The position numbers and the translations under genes were made by a program. The notes beneath the pieces are model-generated. The model had not been told where the DNA came from, searched no databases, and saw only the letters and a program-made list of their open reading frames with translations. Below, piece after piece: positions 6,049 through 26,542 of a stretch of DNA of 64,000 bases; position 1 is the first letter of the stretch; each line of letters opens with the position of its first letter. The DNA comes from Aeriscardovia sp. (GTDB lineage: Bacteria > Actinomycetota > Actinomycetes > Actinomycetales > Bifidobacteriaceae). Location: contig JAFYHY010000097.1 of the NCBI GenBank assembly GCA_017538895.1, positions 62,001-126,000 on the forward strand, written 5' to 3'.

Positions 6049-7314
6049 TTAACGAATAGATTCATAAATTGGATACTGGTGTACGAGATCGTTAACTGTT
6101 GAAATAACAGCGTTTCGACGTCCTTGAGGATCCTCAATCATATCTATAATTAATTGAGCCACAACATCCATATCTTTTTCAGTGAATCCGCGTGTAGTAA
6201 CTGCTGGTGTACCTAAACGCAAACCACTTGTAATGAACGGTTTCTGTGGATCATTTGGCACTGTGTTCTTATTGGCAGTGATATGAACATCATCTAAGTC
6301 TTTTTCAAGCTGTTTACCAGTGATCTGACGATAACGAAGATCAACAAGCATGAGATGATTATCAGTTCCACCCGTTACTAACTCAATTCCTCGTGATAGA
6401 AGACCATTTGCGAGTGCTTGAGCGTTCTTAATGATTTGCTGTTGGTATTGCTGGAAGTCAGGTTGCAGTGCCTCTTTGAAGCTGACTGCCTTTGCAGCAA
6501 TAACATGCATGAGTGGTCCGCCTTGTACTCCTGGAAAAAGAGCTTTATTTAATTTATGTTCTTCGGCGAATTCTGCGCTTGAGAGAAGCATTCCTCCGCG
6601 AGGTCCACGTAATGTTTTATGGGTGGTTGTTGTCACAACATCTGCATATGGGAATGGGCTTGGGTGTAATCCTGCCGCGACTAAGCCAGCGATGTGTGCC
6701 ATGTCGACCATGAGATAAGCGCCAACTTCATCAGCGATTTGACGGAAACGAGCAAAATCGATAGTACGTGCGTAGGCGGAAGCTCCAGCAATGATCATTT
6801 TTGGATGGCATTCATGTGCGATGCGAGCAACTTCATTGTAGTCAATGAATCCTTCATCATTCACGCCATAAGAAACGGCATTAAAATATTTGCCTGATAC
6901 GTTGACTGGGCTACCGTGGGTGAGATGTCCCCCGTTGCTGAGGTCCATTCCCATAAAGGTGTCTCCAGGTTTCAGTAGTGCAAAGAAGGCTATAAAGTTG
7001 GCTTGTGCTCCAGAGTGAGGCTGAACATTCGCATATGTGCAATGGAAAAGTTCTTGTGCTCGTTGTTGTGCTAATCGTTCAATGATATCGACGTATTCAC
7101 AACCACCGTAATAGCGTTTTCCAGGATATCCTTCAGCGTATTTATTAGTCAGTGTGCTTCCTAATGCTGCGAGTACTGCTGGGCTCACGATATTTTCTGA
7201 TGCAATAAGCTCGATGGTATTCTGCTGTCGTTGGGTTTCTTGACGAATTACTTGTGCGATTTCAGGATCAATAGAATCAATATCCTCAAGCGAATACACT
7301 GCTTTTCCTTTCAC
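6049..7314 (-). CDS. glyA: Serine hydroxymethyltransferase
   Basis: A 421-residue PLP enzyme that interconverts serine plus tetrahydrofolate with glycine plus methylene-tetrahydrofolate, the main one-carbon source. The PLP-lysine motif [14 protein letters not shown] lies near residue 230, and the substrate-binding stretches PHSGAQAN and GHLTHG are present. Length matches the family. The ATG overlaps the mtnN stop by 4 nt (ATGA), so it is the last gene of a pepC-mtnN-glyA operon and is probably translationally coupled. It supplies the folate pool made by the fol genes at 36.7-39.2 kb. Confidence 0.97.
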
Positions 7315-8018
7315 AGTTTCTTTAGAATGTTGATAATAATTTGAGATGCAGTATCTGCATATTCAGAAATATCAAAGTGATGGAAACTTTCATATTCTGT
7401 ATCGGTGTTATCGCTCACTGCTCGGAGAACAAGAGCAGGAACGGAATTTTTATCTGCGATATGAATGATAGCTGCGCCTTCCATTTCAACGATATCAGCT
7501 GATGTTTGTTTGCGTGTTTGTTCACGTTTTTCTGCGGTATCAATGAAACGGTTACCGGTTGCGATAATACCAATGATGTAATTGACTTGTTGTTCGCGTA
7601 AGACGTCTTCAGCAATACGAATTAATGAAGCATCAGAGTGATACTCTTTTTCTTCTGGGTATGCTTGCCCAATGAGATCCATATCTGAATCGAGGTATCG
7701 TAATGTACCGCCGAGTACGACATCATTGACGTCTACTTTGTTACTAATATTTCCAGCAATACCAGAGAAAAGAATCGACTCTGGGTGGAAACGTGTAATA
7801 AGAAATTGGGTGGCAGCTCCTGCAGCGACCATTCCCATACCAGCAACAGTCGCAACAACATGAAGATGAGATTGAGAAGTGTCAATTTCTCCCATGAGAA
7901 TATCTAATCCTGCTTCATGTATATATTGCTTATTCTGGAGATGTTGTCCTAGTAACCTAACTTCTTCATCCATCGCTCCAAGAACAGCGATAGTCGATTC
8001 TTTTCTCTCATTCATCAT
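7311..8018 (-). CDS. mtnN: 5'-methylthioadenosine/S-adenosylhomocysteine nucleosidase
   Basis: A 235-residue MTA/SAH nucleosidase that removes adenine from MTA and SAH, clearing the by-products of SAM-dependent reactions. The N-terminal GAMDEEV and the catalytic-region signature [11 protein letters not shown]...LRAVSDNTD are both present. Four-base ATGA overlaps with pepC upstream and glyA downstream make it the middle gene of a tightly coupled operon. Recycling links to methyl-group metabolism, which fits its pairing with glyA. Confidence 0.93.
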
Positions 8019-9346
8019 TCTGCGAGTGCTCCCATTGGATCCCAGGCTGGCAATGAAATTGCTGGCTTTTCGAGGGCTTTTTGTAATTCTTCGCTCAGCA
8101 TGCTCTTTGGTATTGCTACTTCATAAACGTATTCGGTGAACCAGTCATCATCCATAGTGAAGTAACCTTTGTGTGCAATATCGCTTCCCCAGGAATTTTC
8201 AACGCGCCAACGGTTTGTTGTGCCATCTTCGAGGACGTTAACACCGACGAAAGCCATAGCGTGGTTCATTGCTGAGTCGCCGAAACAAACGCGGTCTTCT
8301 TTGCTCATGGTGAAGTCGCTGTTGTAGATGCCTTTATAGTCGAAGAGATCTAAGCTCCAGCTTCCTCCGATACGATCCATGAATGGGTGGCAGTCTGCAC
8401 CGAACCATACTGGGATGTTCTTTTCGGAGAGGATTCGACGGACGCAATCTTTCATGGTTTGAATATCAACGTTGAGGTATTCCGTTGGGTCACCATCAAC
8501 GATGTTGCCGAGGTGCTCGATGGCGATCTTTTGTCCTTTTGGATGATCGTGACGTGGATCGTCAATGAGGCAAATGTATTCGTCAAGGCTGTCACCAACG
8601 TAGGTGTTCCAGAATTCTTGTGGTGTCATTATTCCGGCACGATGGAATTCTCCGTCTTTATCGGTCCATTCCCAGTCAATGTTTTCTGGTGGGTTGCCGA
8701 GATGGATGGTTAAGAGGCGATGAGCGTCTTCAATTCCTGAGGTGATGATTTGTTCAATTTCATCATCTGAGGAGGCTTTTGCCATTTCCATGACGCATTT
8801 ATGAAGGAGGTGTTTGAGCTGAGTATTCATCATTGCGGTATTCTCAGAAGACGCTGTTTCTGGGAAGAAGCTCTTTGGAACAGCACCATATTTCTTATAA
8901 ATATTCATGGCCATGGTCCATTGACCGCCATCACCCATAACATTGCCTAATTGGTATTGGATGAGTTGTCCGTCAATTGGTTCACCCTGGCGTAGAAGGT
9001 CAGCCATGTCTTGTAAGAAGTAGTTGGTGCGTTCTAATTTATCAAAGTACATAGCATATGCTTGTGAGAATTCAAATTCGTCAAGATTTAAATTCTTTTT
9101 TGCGAGAGAACGAGCAACGTTTAAAGAGCTGAAAAGCCAGCAGCGGCCAGATCGTTTTTGATTGGTGACTGTTCCGTCATCAATAGTAATTGAGAATTGG
9201 TATTGGAGTCGACGTGCGGCATTGTAATTGCAAGCGGTAGCGTCGATACCATTCTTAGTAACTGCATCCATTGCCATCCTGTTTTTTGGATCAGCAATAA
9301 ATTGTGAATTCATAGTGCTTAGAATCGATTGATTCAATGCTTTCAT
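8015..9346 (-). CDS. pepC: Aminopeptidase C (C1B, bleomycin-hydrolase family), copy 1
   Basis: A 443-residue cytosolic papain-fold aminopeptidase that removes N-terminal residues from peptides. The catalytic Cys is in QKRSGRCWLF (about Cys69), the His in MNHAMAFVGV and the Asn in VENSWG. Length is typical. It opens the operon with mtnN and glyA. It is the most divergent of three PepC paralogues in this window: its N-terminus lacks the ESDRSNLIAKRAVSTNGIYK block shared by the other two. An AAGGGA site precedes the chosen ATG; Met12 is an alternative start. Confidence 0.95.
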   Translation of the reverse strand: MKALNQSILSTMNSQFIADPKNRMAMDAVTKNGIDATACNYNAARRLQYQFSITIDDGTVTNQKRSGRCWLFSSLNVARSLAKKNLNLDEFEFSQAYAMYFDKLERTNYFLQDMADLLRQGEPIDGQLIQYQLGNVMGDGGQWTMAMNIYKKYGAVPKSFFPETASSENTAMMNTQLKHLLHKCVMEMAKASSDDEIEQIITSGIEDAHRLLTIHLGNPPENIDWEWTDKDGEFHRAGIMTPQEFWNTYVGDSLDEYICLIDDPRHDHPKGQKIAIEHLGNIVDGDPTEYLNVDIQTMKDCVRRILSEKNIPVWFGADCHPFMDRIGGSWSLDLFDYKGIYNSDFTMSKEDRVCFGDSAMNHAMAFVGVNVLEDGTTNRWRVENSWGSDIAHKGYFTMDDDWFTEYVYEVAIPKSMLSEELQKALEKPAISLPAWDPMGALAE

Positions 9347-9477: not shown

Positions 9478-10860
9478 TCACTGTTGTGTGTTGTCAGTCT
9501 CATCTGCTGGTGTCTCATTATTAGCTTGTTCATTGACAGTCGCTTGTTGAGAAGCGTCAGCATCAAGATTAAGAAGATCTAAATCGTTTGTGCCTTGTTC
9601 TGCTGCTGGTGCTGCCATGCCAAAGTTGCCAAAAGCTTGAGAGAACATTGAACGAATTTCATCAACACGAGCCGTAATTGATGCTTCACGTGTTTGCAAC
9701 TGGGAAATACGAGAGTTCAATCCATCAATTTCTTTTTGTGCTGCAGCACGTTGCTCGTCAATTTGTGCGGACGCTTTTTCGCGTGCTTCTTTCAAAATAG
9801 CTGCAGCTTTTTCTTCGGCTTCTTTACGTTTTGATTCGGCATACGTATTAGCATCTTCTTGTGTCTTATGAGCTTTTGCGAGGATTTCATCACTTTCTTG
9901 CTGGCTCTTGGCACGATGTTCATTCAATTGAGCAATCAATTCGTTAATCTTTTTAGTTGCTTCGGATTGTTGCTCTTGAATCTGGTTACGTACCTTTTCA
10001 TATTCTTGAGCAGCTTTGGATAAGGTATCAGCACGCTGTACATTAGCAGCATCTTGAATTTGGGTTGCTTTTGCAGTTGCTGCATCTGTAATTTCACTTG
10101 CTTGGCGTTGAGCATTGCTGAGCATGGTGCTTACTTGTTCACGCGCCTGAGAAAGCTTCTGATTAGCATTTGCTAATGCTTTTTGAATTTGATCGTTTGA
10201 ATCTGACTTTAATCGTGCGATCTCCTCGTCAGCAGACTTACGTTTTTCAGCAATCTGTGCAGCAGCTTGAGCTTGTTTAGCAGCGATTTGCTGTTCCTGA
10301 CTACTCTTCCATGCTTCGAGCTTCTTATCATGCTCTTGACGTGAATTTTCCAGTTCAATCTTCAAAGATTCACGTTGTTCATCATTCATCTGTTGTGCTT
10401 GAGCATTGAGCTGGTCTGCTTTTTGTTGTGCGGTTGTCAAGATGGTGTTTGCTTGCTCTTTGGCTTTAAAGAGGATTGATGATGATTGTGAATTGGCATC
10501 ATCAATGATTCGTTTTGCCTCGATTGAAGCATTATTCACCATTGTCTCAGACTGTTGTTGTGCTGATTCTTTAATTGTTTTCGCATCAGACTTTGCACGA
10601 TTTAATAACTCTGTACTTGTCTGTTCGGCAGAAGCAAGAAGTTGTTGTGCGTTGGCTCCAAGTGAAGCAAAAGTGTTCTTTGGTGCTTCGCTCTTCTTTG
10701 CTTTTTCATTCTCTAATTCTGCTTCTAATGTCAAAATACGAGAATCATACGTTTTAATCTGCTCGCGCATTAAGCTTGCAGACTGTTCAAGATCAGCAAT
10801 TGCTCGATCTACTTTTTCTTTATCATAGCCACGCAAAACAACTGGGAATGACTCCGCCAT
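9478..10860 (-). CDS. DivIVA-like coiled-coil protein
   Basis: I start it at the ATG at 10860, which has GGAGG 6 nt upstream; a longer ATG at 10893 has no site. The 460-residue protein begins with a short DivIVA-type segment (FPVVLRGYDKEKVDRAIADL). About 350 residues of Ala/Gln/Glu/Lys-rich heptads follow, a very long coiled coil. The last ~45 residues are acidic, Asn/Gln-rich and probably disordered. DivIVA-type proteins bind curved membrane at poles or septa and organise wall growth, so a scaffold role is inferred. It is transcribed alone and ends in a strong hairpin. Confidence 0.8.
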   Translation of the reverse strand: MAESFPVVLRGYDKEKVDRAIADLEQSASLMREQIKTYDSRILTLEAELENEKAKKSEAPKNTFASLGANAQQLLASAEQTSTELLNRAKSDAKTIKESAQQQSETMVNNASIEAKRIIDDANSQSSSILFKAKEQANTILTTAQQKADQLNAQAQQMNDEQRESLKIELENSRQEHDKKLEAWKSSQEQQIAAKQAQAAAQIAEKRKSADEEIARLKSDSNDQIQKALANANQKLSQAREQVSTMLSNAQRQASEITDAATAKATQIQDAANVQRADTLSKAAQEYEKVRNQIQEQQSEATKKINELIAQLNEHRAKSQQESDEILAKAHKTQEDANTYAESKRKEAEEKAAAILKEAREKASAQIDEQRAAAQKEIDGLNSRISQLQTREASITARVDEIRSMFSQAFGNFGMAAPAAEQGTNDLDLLNLDADASQQATVNEQANNETPADETDNTQQ

Positions 10861-11034: not shown

Positions 11035-11670
11035 ATGCGAACTTATAGTATTTTGATTGTTGGATTCTCATCCTCTTCTCAAACAGAACAGATGGTTCAC
11101 GAAGCTATTCGGTCTTTAACATGTGATGATTCAAAACAACAGCTTGAAAAAGAGTCACGACATTCGCTTCGCTTTACCTCATTACTATTATCATCTGTTG
11201 ATGAAACCAATCCATGCGAGGTGCTTCAGAATACCTTAGATTCGGTTAATCCTCATCTTATTTTGCTATTGACTGGCATGCCTACTGCGCATGGTGTTGA
11301 ACTGTCGCGATGTGCGTTCCGTACCGATGCAGAGGTAGAAGATCAGACCACTCCTGCAGCGTATTGGACCCGTCTTCCATTAGGACATATTTTGCAAGAA
11401 TTTTCTGGTAAGGTTCCTGCAACAGTTATTGCACGTATGCATCATTCTCTCGAGAACGAATTATTCTATTACATCCTACATTACTGTGATTCAACAGTTA
11501 ATGTTCTCGGTGGAGCAATTAGCCTCCCCCTATTGAAACAGCCTGATGACTTTCAAACCATTGGTATTACACGTGATCAGATGCAGCAAGCAGGATACTG
11601 TATTCTTCAGCAAAGCTTGCATTACATCGATGATATGAGTGTTAGTAGTCATCTTACTGTTGAACAGTAA
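11035..11670 (+). CDS. Pyroglutamyl-peptidase-like protein lacking catalytic Cys and His
   Basis: A 211-residue protein whose length and layout match pyroglutamyl-peptidase I (family C15): an N-terminal ILIVGF strand, a GVELSRCAFR block with the family Glu, and an AYWTRLPLGHIL segment. Where Pcp has the catalytic Cys in SAGTFVCN this protein reads ARMHHSLENELF. The catalytic His in GGFIHVP is replaced, giving GGAISLPL. I therefore infer a pseudoenzyme or a repurposed hydrolase fold. It is convergent with the YfiH gene, overlapping it by 17 nt. Family membership is inferred from spacing and remnant motifs only. Confidence 0.6.
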   Translation: MRTYSILIVGFSSSSQTEQMVHEAIRSLTCDDSKQQLEKESRHSLRFTSLLLSSVDETNPCEVLQNTLDSVNPHLILLLTGMPTAHGVELSRCAFRTDAEVEDQTTPAAYWTRLPLGHILQEFSGKVPATVIARMHHSLENELFYYILHYCDSTVNVLGGAISLPLLKQPDDFQTIGITRDQMQQAGYCILQQSLHYIDDMSVSSHLTVEQ

Positions 11671-12657: not shown

Positions 12658-13998
12658 TCACATCATGATTGGGTTTGTTGTATCCCAGAATGGGAGCATA
12701 GTTGGCTCAGTCTCAAATGCTTGACGCTGTTCTTCAGTGAGATACTTCTTGTTGACAGCAACACCATAGGTGTATTCATCGAACCAAGCATCACTCATGA
12801 TCATATAACCCTTGTCTCCGAGTTCATCACCCCAAGAGTTTTCAATCTTCCAGCGAACTGGTTTATCGTCACGAAGATCAACACCAGCAATAACCATACC
12901 GTGTGTTGGTAAGGATTCTTTGGTGTTGTACATATCCTTCTTGGACATGGAGAAATCAATATTGAATAAATCATTGAATCCGTAAAGATCAAGATCTTCA
13001 ACGCCCTTTTGACGGTCGAATTGCTGCATAACGTCGCAAGAGAACCAGACGCCATAACCGTCTTTCAATTGCTGAATAACAGCATCCTTCATGTCTTTAG
13101 CAGGAGTGTTGAGATAAAGGTTTGGACGTCCGCCAACCATATTTCCAGACATCTCAATACTGTAGAGCTTATTGTAATCTACATTTGGAATGTCTTGAAG
13201 AAGAACGAAGTCGTTCAAGTCAAGTCCGATGAACTGCTTGTAGAAATCTACTGGGGTCATTGGACCATACTGGTGTAGTTCTTTTGCGTCTGACGTATCT
13301 TTGAATTCGAAGTTGATCTCTGATGGAGGAACACCAAGAGCAATAGCAAGGATACGATAGTCTTCGTTCAGCATACGGCTACGAACTTCTTCGAGTTGGT
13401 CAGCCTTGCCTTCGTTAACAAGAGAACGAATCTCTAAAGCATCCTTACGGAGCTTACGGTTGAGGATCATGTTGAGTTCGTTAGAAGAAATGGAACAGTT
13501 AGTCTCATTCATTTGATCTTGTGGAACAACACCATACTTGTCAATCAAAGCGCAAACAAGGCACCAATCGCCACCATCTTGCTGTGGTTGATCCATACGA
13601 TGCCATACGAGTGCATCGCTTAATGGACGATCAGCAAGTTCAACCATATTGTCATAGAAGTAATTGCACTTCTCGAGCTTGTCATAGAAGTAAACATAGC
13701 TTTGTGAGAGCTGGAAATCAGGAGCAACCTTGTGTTCCTTCTGCAGATGTTCACGCAGAACGTTCAATGCAGCGAAGATCCAGCAACGACCAGAACGCTT
13801 CTGATTAGCAACATTTTCTGAATCAACATCAATGGAGAATGTGAAGTTCTCATTGGAGTTGCGATCAACAGCATTCATATCTTCAGCAGCTTTATAAATG
13901 CCGTTAGTGCTCACTGCACGCTTTGCGATGAGATTACTACGATCAGATTCAAAACTCTTTTCAAATTCTTGGAGTTCCTCAGCAGTAATTTCTTTCAT
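12658..13998 (-). CDS. pepC: Aminopeptidase C, copy 2
   Basis: I take the ATG at 13998 (446 aa), because AAAGGA precedes it and the N-terminus then aligns with copy 3 (MKEIT.. / MKEIS..). The frame stays open 16 codons further upstream. Catalytic residues are Cys (about 72, QKRSGRCWIF), His (LPTHGMVIAGV) and Asn (IENSWGDE). Residues 17-55 are nearly identical to copy 3 at 20.2 kb, showing a recent duplication. It lies 343 nt downstream of an APC exchanger on the same strand. The gap holds that gene's terminator, so this copy has its own promoter region, with motifs shared with copy 3. Confidence 0.95.
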   Translation of the reverse strand: MKEITAEELQEFEKSFESDRSNLIAKRAVSTNGIYKAAEDMNAVDRNSNENFTFSIDVDSENVANQKRSGRCWIFAALNVLREHLQKEHKVAPDFQLSQSYVYFYDKLEKCNYFYDNMVELADRPLSDALVWHRMDQPQQDGGDWCLVCALIDKYGVVPQDQMNETNCSISSNELNMILNRKLRKDALEIRSLVNEGKADQLEEVRSRMLNEDYRILAIALGVPPSEINFEFKDTSDAKELHQYGPMTPVDFYKQFIGLDLNDFVLLQDIPNVDYNKLYSIEMSGNMVGGRPNLYLNTPAKDMKDAVIQQLKDGYGVWFSCDVMQQFDRQKGVEDLDLYGFNDLFNIDFSMSKKDMYNTKESLPTHGMVIAGVDLRDDKPVRWKIENSWGDELGDKGYMIMSDAWFDEYTYGVAVNKKYLTEEQRQAFETEPTMLPFWDTTNPIMM

Positions 13999-14111
13999 TA
14001 TCTGCGTCCTTTCTTTTTCTTTGACTATGAGGACACGGAAAAGCACGACTGCACCGCGCTCTCTTCTACATAACTATTAACTGTTTTATCAAGAATTTTC
14101 TTTTAGCTACA

Positions 14112-14341: not shown

Positions 14342-16054
14342 TTAGTTATTTGCTTGAGCACCTTCAATGATTTCTTGTGGAATGTCCTCTAAGCGAGCAT
14401 CTGGGGAGAAATGATGCTTGACAGGCGTTGACATTGGGTTCTGATCATATGCAAGGATTTCTGAAGGAATGTTAGATAGTGATTTTGTTGGTTTATCGAA
14501 TCCTTCAATTTCCCATGTGAATGGCATAAATTCGTTGTTTTGATCTATCCAAGATGTTGCTTCATTCTTGTTAGCGTGCTTTGCACATGCATACAGGATA
14601 AATCCAACGACTAGGATGAAGACATCGATGCTCAGAATAGTAACGACATAGGTTACTGGTGAGCCGACTTCTTTAGCAACCTGTGCTGGAGGCCAAACTG
14701 CAAGAACAATACCGAAGAGGCAGGCAATGTATCCGATGATGCAGGTAATCCATCCACCAACTTTACCTCCTGGAATAGTAAAGCTGCGGGGACGATTTGG
14801 CTGCGTATACTTTAGGCGAAGATAAGCAGTGAAGAAGATCATGTAATAGACCAAGTAGATCACTGTAATTGCTTGTGTCAGAAGAATAACGAAGCCTTCA
14901 ACATTCGGAAGAAGTTCAACGAGGTAAGCGAAAATTGTCATGAAACCGCACTGAATGTACATCAACTTTGATGGCATACCATACTTGTTGTAGCTTTGAA
15001 GCCACTTTGGAAGGAAGCCAGCGCGAGCTGCTTGACCAAGCATGAAGGATGGGCCAGAGAATTGTGTTACTAAGCTAGCGAATGTGTTGCACAGCAAGGC
15101 CCATGTAATAACCATGTAGAGCCATGGCATTCCGATAGCTGCTCCTAGTGCACGGAAGGTTGCGAACAAAGCATAAAGAACATTCAACTGATTTTCTGGG
15201 ATAACAGTTGCGATGACTAATGTGCCGATGATGAAGATAAGGAGGCACAGAATCATGGAAATGAGGATGGCCTTCGGGAATTCTTTCTTTGGATCCTTCA
15301 AATCCTTAATGTGAGCAGCATTCATATCAATACCTGCGTAGCAGAAGAAGACGCCTGCTGCTAACGATAATGTTGAGATACCGTTCCATTGTGGGATTAA
15401 ATTAGATGGCGCATAGCTGATTGCGGAATGATGACCTTCAGCTACCCAGACGATTGCAAGGATAACCATTAAAGCTAATGGGATCAGTGTTCCAATGAAG
15501 ACACCATATTTTGCAATCTTTGAGAAGGCTTTGACGCCGCGGGTTGACATCCAGCACATGATCCAGAAGAACACAACCCAACCGGTCATGATAGCAAGCA
15601 ATCCACCTTCACCAATGAAGGCACTTGAGTTTTCTGCAAAGGCGACAGCTTTACCAAAATCTGGTGTGTAGAAAAGTATTGTCGCACTAAAGGAAGGAAT
15701 ACTCATCGCCATTGCAATTGATGATTGCATCCACAAAATAATTAAGCAGGTAAAGGCCCAACCTTTACCCATTGCTTCTCCAACCCAGCGGAAGATACCA
15801 CCGCGTTGTGACCAACCAGTTGCCATTTCAGCACAAACTAATGCGGTTGGAATGAAGAAGAATATAGATCCAATAAAGAAAAATGTTATAGATGATAAAC
15901 CGTAGAATGCTTGCTGTGGATCATTAGCAAGTCCTGCGATCATTGAAACATTCATCATAGCAAGAGCAAACATTGACATGTATTGCTTCTTGTTATTTGT
16001 CTCTGTCACAGTTGGATATGAGGAGGCTGATGGAACAGACGATACATGATCCAT
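14342..16054 (-). CDS. APC-superfamily amino-acid exchanger, GadC-like, copy 1
   Basis: A 570-residue membrane protein with about 12 transmembrane segments. The stretches FFFIPTALVCAEMATGW and GGIFRWVGEAMGKGW resemble the glutamate/GABA antiporter (GadC) branch of the APC superfamily. A soluble C-terminal tail (~75 residues) contains EILAYDQNPM, also found in copy 2. There is no glutamate decarboxylase nearby; the partner is a PepC peptidase, suggesting exchange or export of amino acids released from peptides. The substrate is not shown. A strong site (GGAAAGGAAGGAG) precedes the ATG, and the shared operator-like motif lies ~100 nt upstream. Confidence 0.88.
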   Translation of the reverse strand: MDHVSSVPSASSYPTVTETNNKKQYMSMFALAMMNVSMIAGLANDPQQAFYGLSSITFFFIGSIFFFIPTALVCAEMATGWSQRGGIFRWVGEAMGKGWAFTCLIILWMQSSIAMAMSIPSFSATILFYTPDFGKAVAFAENSSAFIGEGGLLAIMTGWVVFFWIMCWMSTRGVKAFSKIAKYGVFIGTLIPLALMVILAIVWVAEGHHSAISYAPSNLIPQWNGISTLSLAAGVFFCYAGIDMNAAHIKDLKDPKKEFPKAILISMILCLLIFIIGTLVIATVIPENQLNVLYALFATFRALGAAIGMPWLYMVITWALLCNTFASLVTQFSGPSFMLGQAARAGFLPKWLQSYNKYGMPSKLMYIQCGFMTIFAYLVELLPNVEGFVILLTQAITVIYLVYYMIFFTAYLRLKYTQPNRPRSFTIPGGKVGGWITCIIGYIACLFGIVLAVWPPAQVAKEVGSPVTYVVTILSIDVFILVVGFILYACAKHANKNEATSWIDQNNEFMPFTWEIEGFDKPTKSLSNIPSEILAYDQNPMSTPVKHHFSPDARLEDIPQEIIEGAQANN

Positions 16055-20230: not shown

Positions 20231-21580
20231 TCAGCGAGTTGGTTGCATAGAATTCCAGAATGGGAGCATAATTGGCTCTTCTTCGAAGGCCTTTAGTTGT
20301 TCATCAGACAAGTACTTCTTATTGATGACGACTTCGTATGTGTACTTCTGGAACCAAGGTTCACCCATAACCATGAAGCCTTTATCACCAATCTTGTCGC
20401 CCCAAGAATTTTCGATCTTGAAACGTGTTGGCTTTTCATCTTTGATGTTGACACCAGTAATAACCATTGCGTGTGTTGGCAGTGATTCACGAGTGGTGAA
20501 CATATCACCCTTCTTGAAATCGAAATCAATATCGAAGAGATCATTAAATCCATACATATCAAGATCCATGATTCCTTTTTGACGATCGAATTGCTGCATA
20601 ACATCGCAACCAAACCAAACATCTTGACCATCTTTCAATTGTTCGATAGTCAAGCGTTCCATTTCATCTCCAGGAACATTGAGATAAATGTTTGGACGTC
20701 CACCAACCATATTTCCAGAGTATTGAACACTGTAGGTCTTGCCATATGGCATATCTTCAACGTCTGGAACGTTCATAATGACAAGATAATCGTTCAAATC
20801 TAAGCCAATGAAATCTTTGTAGAACTCTGCTGGCGTCATTGGACCATATTGATGGAACTTCTTCTCATCAGTGGTGTCTTTATATTCAAAGGTAATTTCC
20901 TTTGGTGGAACACCAAGAGCGATAGCAAGAATACGATAGACTTCGTCGAGCATTCCCTTACGTGTAGAGGAGATCTCTTCTTCAGAAGCATGATCAGTCA
21001 CCATACGACGAAGAACCAGTCCGTCCTTACGAAGCTTACGATTCAGGATTGTGTTTAATTCGCTGGAGTTAATGGAGCAGTTAGTCTCATTCATTTGATC
21101 TTTTGGTACAACACCATACTTGTCAATCAAAGCACAAACGAGGCACCAATCTCCACCGTCTTCTTGTGGTGCAGAGAAGAGGTAGTGAACTCCACGATCG
21201 CTCATTGGTTTGTCTGCAGTCTCAATGACATTCTGATAGAAGTAATTGGACTTTTCGAGCTTGTCATAGAAGTTCTCATAATTCTGAGATAATTCAAAGT
21301 CTTCTGGCAGATTGTACTTCTTGACCATGAAGTTGCGAAGAGTATTCAGACCAGAATAGATCCAGCAACGACCAGAATGATTTTGATTTGATGCACTTAA
21401 CTTGACATCATCTGTGGAGAAGGTGAAGTTCTCATTAGAGTTACGGTCAACTGCATTCATATCTTGAGCAGACTTATAAATGCCATTTGTGCTTACTGCA
21501 CGTTTTGCAATGAGATTGCTACGGTCAGATTCAAAATTCTCTTGGAACTTTGCTAACTCATCAATGCTAATCTCTTTCAT
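20231..21580 (-). CDS. pepC: Aminopeptidase C, copy 3
   Basis: A 449-residue C1B peptidase. The catalytic Cys is at about residue 72 (QNHSGRCWIY), with His in LPTHAMVITGV and Asn in IENSWGDK. It shares the block ESDRSNLIAKRAVSTNGIYK and most of its length with copy 2 but differs around the active site (NHSGRCWIYSG against KRSGRCWIFAA), so specificity may differ. It lies 144 nt downstream of APC exchanger 2 on the same strand with no clear terminator between them, and two shared operator-like motifs lie in that gap. AAAGGGG precedes the ATG. Confidence 0.95.
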   Translation of the reverse strand: MKEISIDELAKFQENFESDRSNLIAKRAVSTNGIYKSAQDMNAVDRNSNENFTFSTDDVKLSASNQNHSGRCWIYSGLNTLRNFMVKKYNLPEDFELSQNYENFYDKLEKSNYFYQNVIETADKPMSDRGVHYLFSAPQEDGGDWCLVCALIDKYGVVPKDQMNETNCSINSSELNTILNRKLRKDGLVLRRMVTDHASEEEISSTRKGMLDEVYRILAIALGVPPKEITFEYKDTTDEKKFHQYGPMTPAEFYKDFIGLDLNDYLVIMNVPDVEDMPYGKTYSVQYSGNMVGGRPNIYLNVPGDEMERLTIEQLKDGQDVWFGCDVMQQFDRQKGIMDLDMYGFNDLFDIDFDFKKGDMFTTRESLPTHAMVITGVNIKDEKPTRFKIENSWGDKIGDKGFMVMGEPWFQKYTYEVVINKKYLSDEQLKAFEEEPIMLPFWNSMQPTR

Positions 21581-21724: not shown

Positions 21725-23428
21725 TTAATCTAACGCTTGAGCATCAGCAATAATCTGTGGATCTAAATCAGCCTTCATTGCAGTAGAGGCAAAATGATGC
21801 TTAATTGGCATTCCCATTGGATTCTGATCATATGCAAGAATATCTGAATCAATATCAGAGCTGACTGCTTGCGGCTTAGGAAGACCCTCAATTTCCCATG
21901 TAAATGGAGAGAACTCATTCTGCGGATCTACCCAATCATGACGATTCTTTGCGAGTGCGTAGATGATTGCTGCGACAAGCAGGACGAAAATGACGATGGC
22001 GATAATGGTAACGACGTAGGTTACTGGTGAGCCAACTTCTTCTGACACCTGTGCTGGTGGCAAGATAGAAAGAACGATACCGAATACGCAGGAGATGTAT
22101 CCGATGATGCAGGTGATCCATCCGCCAACTTTGCCTCCTGGAATGGTAAAGCTGCGTGGACGATTTGGTTGCATGTATTTGAGACGTAGGTAGGCAGTAA
22201 AGAAGATGATGTAGTACAGCAGGTAGGTGACGGTGACTGCTTGGTCAAGCATGATGACGAAGCCTTCGATGTTTGGAAGGAGTTCGACGAGGTAGGCGAA
22301 AATGGTCATGAATGCGCATTGTGCATACATAAGTTTTGATGGCATACCGTATTCGTTATAGCTTTGCATTGCTTTTGGTAGATAACCGACGCGTGCTGCT
22401 TGGCCAAGCATGAAGGATGGGCCAGCGAAGCTGGTAACGGTAAGAGCAATGGTGTTGCAGAGTAATGCCCATGTAATGACCATGTATAGCCATGGCATTC
22501 CGATGGTTGCGCCGAGGTCACGGAAGACCGCGAAAAGTGTATAGAGGACATTAATTTGTGATTCTGGGATAACGGTTGCGATGATTAGGGTTCCGATAAC
22601 GAAGATGAGAAAAGCAAGGATCATAGAGACAACCATTGCGCGAGTAAAATCACGTTTTGGATTTTTTAAGTCTTTAATATGCGCTGCATTCATATCAATA
22701 CCTGCATAGCTGAAAAGAACGCCTGCAACAAGTGATAATGATGACATGCCGTTCCATTTTGGAACGAGGTTTGATGGTGCGTAGCTGATAGCTGAGGTGT
22801 GACCTTTAGCTAACCATACAAAAACAAAAATAATCATTAAAGCAAGTGGAATAAGCGTACCGACATAGACGCCAGCTTTAGCGATTTTAGAGAAGGCTTG
22901 AACACCGTGAGCTGCTAAGAATGCCATGAACCAATAGAATAAAACGAAACCAGTCATGATAAGCAATAAGCCTGTTTTGCCAATAAAAGCGTTTGGGTCT
23001 TTTGCGAATTGGACTGCTTTGGAGAAGTTATTGGTATAGAAAAGAAGTGTTGCACTAAACGATGGGATACCAACACCAAGAATAATAGAGGTTTGGAACC
23101 ATAAAATGATCAAGCAGGCAAAAGCCCAACCTTTGCCCATCGCTTCGCCAACCCAGCGGAAAATACCACCTTTTTGTGGCCATCCTGTTGCCATTTCAGC
23201 ACAGACTAATGCGGTTGGAATGAAGAAGAAAATTGCTCCAATTGCAAAATAGGTTACTGAAGAAAGACCATAGAATGCTTGTTGAGGGTCATTTGCTAAT
23301 CCAGCAATCATGGACACATTCATCATTGCTAGAGCAGAAATTGATATATATTCTTTTTTGATTGCAGTATGGTCTCGATGTGAATATGAGGCCAAGCTTG
23401 GTAGATCGCTAGATTGACTACTACTCAC
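21725..23428 (-). CDS. APC-superfamily amino-acid exchanger, GadC-like, copy 2
   Basis: I take the GTG at 23428 (567 aa): AAAGGAAG lies 7 nt upstream and its N-terminus then matches copy 1. An ATG six codons earlier would place that site inside the gene. There are about 12 membrane segments and the same signatures as copy 1 (MMNVSMIAGLANDPQQAFYG, GGIFRWVGEAMGKGWAF, SGPSFMLGQAAR-like). The EILAYDQNPM-type tail is kept as DILAYDQNPM. The two proteins are clearly paralogous over their whole length. With pepC copy 3 immediately downstream it forms the second exchanger/peptidase module. The exchanged amino acids are unknown. Confidence 0.88.
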   Translation of the reverse strand: MSSSQSSDLPSLASYSHRDHTAIKKEYISISALAMMNVSMIAGLANDPQQAFYGLSSVTYFAIGAIFFFIPTALVCAEMATGWPQKGGIFRWVGEAMGKGWAFACLIILWFQTSIILGVGIPSFSATLLFYTNNFSKAVQFAKDPNAFIGKTGLLLIMTGFVLFYWFMAFLAAHGVQAFSKIAKAGVYVGTLIPLALMIIFVFVWLAKGHTSAISYAPSNLVPKWNGMSSLSLVAGVLFSYAGIDMNAAHIKDLKNPKRDFTRAMVVSMILAFLIFVIGTLIIATVIPESQINVLYTLFAVFRDLGATIGMPWLYMVITWALLCNTIALTVTSFAGPSFMLGQAARVGYLPKAMQSYNEYGMPSKLMYAQCAFMTIFAYLVELLPNIEGFVIMLDQAVTVTYLLYYIIFFTAYLRLKYMQPNRPRSFTIPGGKVGGWITCIIGYISCVFGIVLSILPPAQVSEEVGSPVTYVVTIIAIVIFVLLVAAIIYALAKNRHDWVDPQNEFSPFTWEIEGLPKPQAVSSDIDSDILAYDQNPMGMPIKHHFASTAMKADLDPQIIADAQALD

Positions 23429-23623
23429 GATCCAACTTCCTTTCATCGCTGAAGCATCATCGAATTGCCATACAAAATTTAGTAATACGCATGATTCCTC
23501 TGTGACTCAATAGCATACGCAAAAGTAATACGATGACAATTCGTAAGAAATGTATAGAAGAAAGAATAGTTATAACACAATGGAGGTTATGATTACTCTC
23601 TTTCTTTTCCAGTTAAGAAAAAA

Positions 23624-23714: not shown

Positions 23715-24725
23715 TTAGTAACCGTACCGCATCTTTGCATGCTGCATTTGCTTCCAATGATTCTTTCTCCACACAAGTGGAAGAAGCAAAATAAAGAAGA
23801 GTAGGCCGCCAAAACCACAGCAGATTCCATTCAACAGTGGGTCAGTGACCGCACTTGGGTATGGTGCTTCTTGCGGCATTTTGACTCGTTCCCCAGTTAC
23901 TAACAGACGATGCGTATTAATACCATATGGTGTACAGGTCAGTAAGGTCACTAGATCTTTTCCTGGAACAATAGTGATTGCTGATGCATCTGTTGGAAGA
24001 ATCACCTTAATACTGATAACTTTGTAGGCTAATGTCTCCCCCATGGTTTTGATATAAAAATCATCGCCAATTTTCATTTCCGTTAATCGTGTGAACATTA
24101 ATGCTTTAATAAAACCAGTATGTGCAGCTATCACTGCGCGGGTATTAATACCGCCGACAGGTAGACTCGTTCCATAGATTTGACCAGCTCCAGATGCTAG
24201 TGTTGCTTCACTTGTTCCGTGATAGATCGGAAGGTTCACACCTATTTCTGGGATCACAACAGAACCTTCAATTCCTCCTCCTTCATTCAGAAGAGAAAGG
24301 TAATGTTTATACGCTTTTGATGTTGTGATACTGTCATCTTTTGATTTCTGTGATGAACTACGGTTACTTGCAGTAAGGAATGGATCATCTACTTGACCAA
24401 TGATTGGTTGACCGCTTTCATATAACTGTTTGTTATATTCTTGTGCTGCTTTAATCGCGTTTTGCGCTTCAGGATATGGCCATGATGATACGTTTTTTTG
24501 TCGTTCTTGTACGATAGCTATCTGTTCGCGTTGAGAGATAGTATCCAAAATAAATGGGTAGGCAGCGATAGATAAACCGCTGACAAAAAGAGCAATAAAA
24601 AGAACAAGAAGCGCATTAAGCTGTCGTATTGCACGTCGTTTATCACGTACTTTTTTATCAGATTTAGTACTAAGTTGAGAATTTGTTTTTTGAGTCTTTT
24701 GGTGTGAACAAGACTGATCTACCAT
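23715..24725 (-). CDS. Class C (pilin-polymerising) sortase
   Basis: I start at the ATG at 24725 (336 aa) with AGAAGGA just upstream; a GTG seven codons earlier has no site. There is an N-terminal membrane segment (LLVLFIALFVSGLSIAAYPF) and a lid-type DPF motif (VDDPFLTAS). The catalytic His lies in AVIAAHTGF, and Cys and Arg in LLTCTPYGINTHRLLVTG. A second membrane segment at the C-terminus is typical of class C. It joins pilin subunits through a lysine of the next subunit. It lies directly downstream of the LPMTG pilin, but a strong terminator separates them. Confidence 0.93.
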   Translation of the reverse strand: MVDQSCSHQKTQKTNSQLSTKSDKKVRDKRRAIRQLNALLVLFIALFVSGLSIAAYPFILDTISQREQIAIVQERQKNVSSWPYPEAQNAIKAAQEYNKQLYESGQPIIGQVDDPFLTASNRSSSQKSKDDSITTSKAYKHYLSLLNEGGGIEGSVVIPEIGVNLPIYHGTSEATLASGAGQIYGTSLPVGGINTRAVIAAHTGFIKALMFTRLTEMKIGDDFYIKTMGETLAYKVISIKVILPTDASAITIVPGKDLVTLLTCTPYGINTHRLLVTGERVKMPQEAPYPSAVTDPLLNGICCGFGGLLFFILLLPLVWRKNHWKQMQHAKMRYGY

Positions 24726-24766
24726 TAATTCCTTCTTCGATTTCACTAATTATATCGAATTTGTAA

Positions 24767-24805
24767 GAAAAAAGTGCGTCCGCTAATGTACTCAGCGGAC
24801 GCACT
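24767..24805 (-). terminator. Terminator between pilin and sortase
   Basis: A 12-bp perfect stem (AGTGCGTCCGCT and complement) with a 9-nt loop is followed by six T on the minus strand, 33 nt past the pilin stop and before the sortase start. It should limit read-through into the sortase gene. Confidence 0.88.
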
Positions 24806-24838
24806 CTATCTATTTCTTACTCACCATAATGGGAGATA

Positions 24839-26542
24839 TCAGTCTTGAAGAAGTTCCTTCTTCTTGCGGTAGACAACCAAGACAATTGCAGCGCCACCGA
24901 GAAGAACGATTGCGACGAAGACGCCAAGAATGATGCCTGCGCCACCAGTCATAGGAAGCTGATCGATAGACTTAACGTTTTCGACGGTATCTTCAGAGGT
25001 GTTAACAAGACCCCATGGATCGCCAGTAGCTGTCTTGGAAACAGTTTCTGCAGAACCGTACTTCAAAGTAACAGTGAAGCTTGGCTTAATTGCTTGTGCT
25101 CCTGTTGCTTGGGTAGTTTCTGTAACGGTGTAGGTGCCGTTAGCAAGACCGCCGATTTCGAAAAGACCCTTTTGGTTGACAGAGCTGAATTGCTCTGCAT
25201 CAGCTGTGTTAGTGGTCCAAGCCCAGCTACCAGTAGTGCTGCCAGCCATCAAATATTCAGTAGTACCGTTAACAGTCTTAGAGACTTCGAACTTTGCTCC
25301 AGTTGCAGCTGTTCCATTTGGCCAAATCTTCTGCCACCACATACCAACATTAGTTGCGGATGGTGAAGGCTCATCTGGGCTTACTGGATTTGAATTTGGA
25401 GTATTTGGATTTTCTGGAGTGGAACCTGAATTTGGTGAACCGTTGGTATGAACAGTTGCGCTGGAGTCAGCAGAGGTTGCTCCATTGTTGTTGACACTTG
25501 CAGTGTTGGTTGCAGTTTCATCGGTGACTTGGTTATTGATGAAACCGGTATATGTCATGGTTAAATCGCTACCAACAGAAACTTTTTCTTTAGTCTGGAG
25601 GTAGTCAAGAGCTGCCTTAGAAAGGGTAACAGTTAACTTATCGCTACCGTTGCCAACTAAAGTAGAACCAGATGATGGGTCAACAGTAACAGAACCGGTA
25701 CCTGCATCGGAATTTAACTGAGCAACAGTCAATCCATCAATTTCGATGGAGTTGAGGTTCAAAGTTAAACCAGTTCCTGGGGTATCAACGAATTGGTAAG
25801 TATAGGTAGTGGTATTGGAATCATTTGGCATTGTTCCTTTAACGGAATAGTCAATTGTTTGTCCAATATCGAAGGTGTCATCAGTAGCAGAACCGTTAGT
25901 AACAGTCTTTACAGGAGCCTGTGGTGTTGTTTGATTCTTGATAGCGATGCTGTTTGTCAGATTTGGTGTAACAGTTGGACCACCCTGTGTAGAAATAATA
26001 ATTGGAACAGAAGAGTTAGTTGTTGAGGTATCAACAATTTCATAAACACCAGCTGGAAGAGTTGCAGTAGCAGTAGTTCCGGTGACAGTAGTGTTCAAAG
26101 TAGAACCGTCAGAAGCAGCTACAGAAGCCAAAGCTTGTGCTAACTTACGTGAGTTAGAACTAGAAGTTCCTGTACTTTCCTGACCAAATACTGGCGTGGA
26201 CTGGTTTTCAGCCCATGCTAAAGGATTATCTTGATAGTCGCTTGGAACGGTGTATCCAAGATTCGTTAATTCTGCGCAAATCTGAGATGCGTAAGCAGAA
26301 TTAGTTACTAAACCATATGTACTCGTACCATACTGGGTGTAGCTACCAAGTTGGATGTACTTGAAAGTATGCCCCTGTAACTGTTGACTATCTTGAGCCG
26401 TAAGAGTGATAGTCTCATTTGTAGTAACTGCGGTACCACCAGAAGTAGCTGCATTAGCTGTTGCTACTCCAAAAGCCAAACCACACAGCGACATAGCTGT
26501 AGCTGCCGCACCAGCGACAAACTTTTTGGCATTTCCCTTCAT
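24839..26542 (-). CDS. LPXTG-anchored major pilin / fimbrial subunit
   Basis: A 567-residue surface protein. It has a signal peptide (positive N-terminus, hydrophobic VAGAAATAMSLCGLAFGVA, cleavage near ANA-AT), Thr-rich isopeptide-type fimbrial domains, a Pro/Asn/Ser-rich linker (~residues 365-400) and a Cna-B-like C-terminal domain. An E-box-like TYTVTETTQATG lies there, then LPMTG, a membrane helix and a KKK tail. Lysines in SIAIKNQ could be the polymerising pilin lysine (tentative). It is followed by its sortase. No second pilin lies next to it. AAAGGGGAG precedes the ATG and is part-covered by a palindrome. Confidence 0.9.
   Translation of the reverse strand: MKGNAKKFVAGAAATAMSLCGLAFGVATANAATSGGTAVTTNETITLTAQDSQQLQGHTFKYIQLGSYTQYGTSTYGLVTNSAYASQICAELTNLGYTVPSDYQDNPLAWAENQSTPVFGQESTGTSSSNSRKLAQALASVAASDGSTLNTTVTGTTATATLPAGVYEIVDTSTTNSSVPIIISTQGGPTVTPNLTNSIAIKNQTTPQAPVKTVTNGSATDDTFDIGQTIDYSVKGTMPNDSNTTTYTYQFVDTPGTGLTLNLNSIEIDGLTVAQLNSDAGTGSVTVDPSSGSTLVGNGSDKLTVTLSKAALDYLQTKEKVSVGSDLTMTYTGFINNQVTDETATNTASVNNNGATSADSSATVHTNGSPNSGSTPENPNTPNSNPVSPDEPSPSATNVGMWWQKIWPNGTAATGAKFEVSKTVNGTTEYLMAGSTTGSWAWTTNTADAEQFSSVNQKGLFEIGGLANGTYTVTETTQATGAQAIKPSFTVTLKYGSAETVSKTATGDPWGLVNTSEDTVENVKSIDQLPMTGGAGIILGVFVAIVLLGGAAIVLVVYRKKKELLQD

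Follow-up and report, generated by a model that had tools for sequence, protein, structure and literature searches.

Is the gene at this locus of an Aeriscardovia sp. still a peptidase gene and, if its catalytic residues are gone, what is the protein kept for? The DNA analysed, called the window here, is a stretch of 64,000 nucleotides. The first-pass annotation had placed an open reading frame at 11035–11670, and the frame was confirmed there on the + strand. It is intact, with 211 codons and no stop or frameshift in an AT-rich genome. The GC content at codon positions 1, 2 and 3 is 0.54, 0.38 and 0.31, respectively, which fits a coding sequence in such a genome. The gene and the codons at its former active site are as follows.

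11035..11670, + strand: pseudopeptidase gene, named PcpL here; C15 fold, 211 aa
11305..11307, + strand: codon of Ser91, in the column of the catalytic Glu81 (alignments)
11452..11454, + strand: codon of Glu140, in the column of the catalytic Cys144 (alignments)
11521..11523, + strand: codon of Ser163, in the column of the catalytic His168 (alignments)

A remote homologue of pyroglutamyl peptidase

The Pfam scan of the window protein gave Peptidase_C15 as the sole family to pass its threshold, by a narrow margin (23.6 bits against 22.7; E 6.1e-5). The score with TIGR00504 was 25.9 bits, below the equivalog cut-off of 201.75. When solved structures were searched with the single sequence, chains of pyroglutamyl peptidase I (Pcp) came out on top, with a best E-value of 6e-4. 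Judged by single-sequence E-values alone, the match to C15 is weak. A profile of the PcpL family, however, matched 1aug with an E-value of 2.1e-40, and all 46 clade members in alignment A3 matched Peptidase_C15 at E ≤ 0.001. Clade members score between 38.4 (L003) and 148.3 (L185) with TIGR00504, with L182 at 146.3 and L249 at 139.5, again set against the cut-off of 201.75. The positive control, the true Pcp at locus L033, reached 247.5 bits with TIGR00504 and 286.2 bits with NCBIfam PRK13197.

An AlphaFold2 model of the window protein was obtained with an input alignment of 47 sequences (the window protein and 46 relatives). The mean pLDDT is 89.6 and the pTM is 0.86. Superposed on solved structures, the model recovered the Pcp fold: ranks 1–23 are all Pcp, with Z scores between 19.3 and 22.6, whereas the best other fold reaches 12.2. 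The best match is 1iu8_A (Z 22.6, rmsd 2.8 over 184 residues). The model of another clade member, L185, superposes on 4hps_B with a TM-score of 0.83. Core residues that occupy invariant columns of the 47-sequence alignment are still present in the window protein (Trp111, Thr112, Pro115, Tyr145, Gly160 and Pro165). Fold, length and order of blocks are those of Pcp (C15; PF01470; 1aug, 3lac, 1iu8).

The family profile, the predicted model and the tree described below establish the window protein as a remote but real C15 homologue. The profile and the tree speak against a chance match of one odd open reading frame. The kinship with C15 that the first-pass annotation drew from size, block order and spacing is thereby borne out.

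The catalytic triad in the window protein and its family

Residue numbering is that of 1aug, counted on the 1aug row of the HMM-PDB alignment, and we take the catalytic triad of 1aug to be Glu81, Cys144 and His168. All three columns are substituted in the window protein: Glu81 is replaced by Ser91, Cys144 by Glu140 and His168 by Ser163. The earlier reading from the letters had reported the replacement of Cys and His; the alignments agree and add the Glu. Most residues of the Cys loop are also gone, in the window protein and in its genus. A misalignment at the His column was considered and rejected, as two alignments and the HMM-PDB alignment gave the same outcome and every control read has the full triad. 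With the triad wholly lost, peptidase activity of the window protein by the C15 mechanism would be very unlikely. Taken with the Pcp fold and the intact frame, the name pyroglutamyl-peptidase-like pseudoenzyme is apt.

Relatives were sought in 189 genomes of Bifidobacteriaceae. The C15 model matched in 171, and the matches are of two kinds: true Pcp (kind A) and the His-less clade to which the window protein belongs (kind B). Kind A, with E < 1e-50, is patchy and occurs in 34 of the 189 genomes, whereas kind B was found in 168. We read the triad columns of kind B in 153 of these 168 genomes (146 and a further 7; 15 were left unread). His is present in 0, Cys in 149 and Glu in 150 (0, 142 and 143 in the first 146). 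Written in the order Glu81-Cys144-His168, the 146 genomes have Glu-Cys-Ser (120), Glu-Cys-Asn (18), Asp-Cys-Cys (2), and Glu-Cys-Ala, Glu-Cys-Gly and Glu-Ser-Ser (1 each); the three genomes of the window genus carry Ser-Glu-Ser (the window), Glu-Ser-Glu and Glu-Ala-Glu. The further seven have Glu-Cys-Ser (5) and Glu-Cys-Asn (2). After realignment the triad of G094 reads Glu-Cys-Ser, and a stop flagged in the clade locus of G046 is an ordinary frame end.

A scan of contigs with the window protein as a single sequence found no relative. The alignment-based scan confirmed 197 loci, and triads were taken from the 80 named loci that were kept of these: 64 have Glu-Cys-Ser and 16 Glu-Cys-Asn, in a set that overlaps with the 153 genomes. 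The hosts of these 80 loci are Bifidobacterium, Gardnerella, Scardovia, Pseudoscardovia, Galliscardovia and other Bifidobacteriaceae.

The losses of the window protein are therefore shared by its relatives only in part. The absence of His is common to all 153 genomes. Cys is missing only from the window genus (three of three genomes) and from G101, which has Ser. In the Glu81 column, Ser occurs only in the window species, and G001 and G002 have Asp. Among the members read of this bifidobacterial His-less version of C15, the window protein has degenerated furthest.

No substitute for the lost His is apparent. A search for His-rich columns in 151 distinct clade sequences found His in at most 74 of the 151 in any column, so the clade has no conserved replacement. 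This would speak against a triad re-formed from other positions; by alignment position alone, His136, His137 and Cys93 would be the candidates for a relocated Cys-His pair in the window protein.

The controls behave differently. True Pcp of the family has the full Glu-Cys-His triad in all 30 of the 34 genomes that were read. Relatives from the same order but outside the family, chosen non-randomly and mostly from the highest scorers, keep the triad in 19 of 19 read and all score higher with the kind A model. The tree was built from 65 rows (34 kind B, 12 kind A and 19 others), and its root was not inferred by the method. Kind B forms one side of a branch with 100/100 support, and kind A groups with Pcp from elsewhere in the order. 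The true Pcp of Bifidobacteriaceae (for example L033) thus shares host family and fold family with the clade but is separate from it in the tree. The window row clusters first with its own genus (99/95), and this group in turn joins genus g2 (99/98). At 1.67 changes per column, the window row has the longest end branch in the tree.

As His is absent from every kind B sequence read and the full triad is present in all controls, the loss of His is ancestral. The simplest account would be that His was lost once, before the clade diversified. On the same account, Cys would have been lost later in the window genus and separately in G101, and the Glu81 column would have become Asp in two g2 genomes and Ser in the window species.

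The distribution of true Pcp bears on one possible role. The window protein could be a non-catalytic subunit or a regulator of a true pyroglutamyl peptidase, with which it would form mixed oligomers. The shared fold favors this, and Pcp forms tetramers. The co-occurrence opposes it: true Pcp is found in 34 and the His-less protein in 168 of the 189 genomes, and in the genome of the window no C15 match other than the protein itself reaches E ≤ 0.001. Mixed oligomers are on these counts highly improbable, and regulation of the true enzyme is an unlikely role.

The pocket of kind B was compared in 151 distinct sequences, with the window genus left out, against 49 comparison sequences. Cys144 is kept in 150, Glu81 and Asn19 in 149 each, and Asn145 and Gly140 in all 151. 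Asp138 is present in 149, where the comparison sequences mostly have Thr (0.73 of 49). Tyr replaces Phe13 in 145. Gln71 is mostly Leu in kind B (89% of 151), and is Gln in 67% of the 49. Lys72 (K78 of the first row of A3, numbered by alignment) occurs in every one of the 46 A3 sequences. Asn19 and most of the Cys loop are thus common to Pcp and the clade and absent from the window protein, while His168 is lacking throughout the clade. The kind B pocket has had one catalytic residue removed with most others held, a pattern that is not one of general decay.

An altered enzyme in the members that keep Cys is possible on this evidence. Cys144 and Glu81, with the clade-specific Asp138 and Lys72, could form a His-free thiol site for another substrate or reaction, with the state of the window protein a secondary loss. 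The near-invariance of Cys144, Glu81, Asn145, Gly140, Asp138, Lys72 and the Tyr in place of Phe13 is unlike drift. The retained residues may, however, serve binding or folding instead, and the gene is retained where the Cys is absent (the window genus) or replaced by Ser (G101). We consider such an activity unlikely.

One biochemical report touches on the same idea. In the accessible part of one paper, pyroglutamic acid arylamidase is positive in two strains of B. asteroides, and the enzyme table gives genus values of 9% for beta-galactosidase and 100% for arginine dehydrolase (PMC8950671). In group g6, each of the 27 genomes yields only one C15 match, and the 23 that were read are all Glu-Cys-Ser. 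This group holds B. polysaccharolyticum, and we take it to be near B. asteroides. Arylamidase-positive B. asteroides, together with a group that has only the His-less protein, would speak for activity without His. The genus values of the table (9% and 100%) are at odds with the traits of bifidobacteria, and this clash counts against the argument. A His-free thiol enzyme throughout the family (Cys144-Glu81, Asp138 and Lys72), which may explain arylamidase activity of the pyroglutamyl type without a true Pcp and would leave the window protein as a kept scaffold with an abandoned site, is in our view improbable.

Gene order and constraint

The neighbors that define the locus are listed below.

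8015..9346, − strand: pepC-like gene (Peptidase_C1_2, Pfam), next in the conserved order
9478..10860, − strand: DivIVA-like coiled-coil gene, conserved neighbor (Pfam DivIVA 24.6 bits, under the cut-off of 28); start chosen by comparison with L185
11654..12568, − strand: yfiH (Cu-oxidase_4), conserved neighbor (PF02578, 153 bits)

In relatives the usual order, on one strand, is yfiH, kind B, the DivIVA-like gene and pepC; in L185 an ispD-like gene follows yfiH, as judged by reading. The DivIVA-like gene is near kind B in 144 of the 146 fetched stretches. yfiH is present in 127; in 13 of the 19 stretches without it, the flanks covered only some 1.5 kb. A pepC match was found in 101, with many stretches stopping short of its place. 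In the window, yfiH is convergent with the pseudopeptidase gene, and their 3' ends share 17 bases. The DivIVA-like gene is divergent from it, whereas in most relatives the two are on the same strand. Kind B is opposite in strand to both neighbors in 10 of 144 genomes: G036, three genomes each from g2 and g9, and those of the window genus. The flipped relatives of the window gene are G001–G003, G036, G163–G165, G182 and G183, and G036 belongs to a genus group separate from the other nine.

The gene can be absent. In G090, G091 and G113, yfiH and the DivIVA-like gene are adjacent, and tblastn at E ≤ 1 detected no remnant of kind B in the interval; no kind B match was found in five small-genome relatives, group g13, that have a close DivIVA-like gene. 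The pseudopeptidase gene is therefore usual but dispensable, and an obligate partnership with the DivIVA-like protein is opposed by genomes that have the DivIVA-like gene and lack a clade match. Two of the three genomes with gene-less loci (L317, L318 and L319), namely G090 and G113, carry true Pcp.

The surroundings are rich in peptidases, as had been remarked at first sight, with three Peptidase_C1_2 (PepC) genes and one M13 peptidase. The PepC genes lie on the − strand within about 14 kb (8015–9346, 12658–14001 and 20231–21580). Two of them adjoin genes of amino acid permeases (14342–16054, by Pfam, and 21725–23446, by resemblance). As a side reading, genes for the use of peptides or amino acids are locally expanded here. 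At 6049–9346 (− strand), genes for SHMT, a nucleosidase (PNP_UDP_1) and PepC follow in succession with overlapping ends, in an operon-like arrangement. At 23715–26542 (− strand), there is a sortase gene with a pilin-backbone-like protein bearing a C-terminal anchor of LPMTG type, read by eye; this is likely a sortase pilus locus. The base composition of the window genus is very uneven: loci L002, L180 and L181 are at 40% (window), 57% and 63% GC.

Selection was estimated from the sister pair G182/G183, both of which lack Cys and His. The dN is 0.094 and the dS is 0.413, which gives a dN/dS of about 0.23 (bootstrap 95%, 0.14–0.33). Among six neighboring genes in this pair, the pseudopeptidase has the highest dN/dS (0.236), near that of yfiH (0.210), and the other four lie at 0.05–0.11. 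The protein is thus still constrained, less than most of its neighbors. For the window gene itself dN/dS is unobtainable, as synonymous sites are saturated. Its product is 36% identical to that of G182, the lowest of the six genes (yfiH 44%, DivIVA-like 82%). Constraint on the gene is relaxing in the window lineage.

These values invite the explanation that the window gene no longer has a function and is decaying, and that a first stop or frameshift has simply yet to occur. The entire triad and most loop residues are lost, the end branch is the longest in the tree, the identity is the lowest among neighboring genes, and the gene is missing from some relatives. Against decay stand the open frame of 211 codons in an AT-rich genome, the confidently predicted fold with its core residues kept, and the dN/dS of 0.23 in Cys-less sister genes. 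We hold a functionless relic to be doubtful.

A candidate role for the protein

The window gene probably encodes a folded, non-catalytic C15 pseudopeptidase that is kept for binding or structure under relaxing constraint. The tree and the counts support an ancestor within the Bifidobacteriaceae in which a C15 protein other than true Pcp lost its catalytic His. The column would then have become Ser or Asn in nearly all present members, with Cys144, Glu81 and the Cys loop retained. In the three genomes of the window genus, Cys and most of its loop are missing too, and the window species has also lost the Glu. The window protein would then perform no Cys-His cleavage of pyroglutamyl peptides. Its role would be non-catalytic, most simply the binding of a ligand or peptide in a remodelled pocket or the provision of a structural surface, in cells whose locus also carries the DivIVA-like coiled-coil gene, yfiH and pepC. 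The long branch and the lowest identity among neighbors also fit decay, and the dN/dS of the gene is the highest of six in the sister pair, though near that of yfiH. A binding or structural role is favored; for the window species, the chief competing reading is decay.

Human PGPEP1L is a C15 pseudopeptidase of eukaryotes. In other peptidase families, yeast Ecm14 (M14) and the pseudo-caspase FLIP(L) have, according to the accessible parts of their descriptions, a peptidase fold without the required catalytic residues, as the window protein does. A literature search, with most subscription journals outside its coverage, yielded no description of a C15 protein without His in bifidobacteria, and the accessible main text of PMC4921777 contains no word that begins with "peptidase". 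Within this partial coverage, the His-less bifidobacterial clade is a previously unreported variant of a known family.

For this clade, Gardnerella included, a match to the C15 family alone is poor ground for annotating a pyroglutamyl peptidase. The family offers a graded natural series: true Pcp has the full triad, most bifidobacteria keep Cys and Glu but no His, the window genus has no Cys and the window species none of the three. With this series, the questions of when a peptidase stops being one and what keeps its gene become directly testable.
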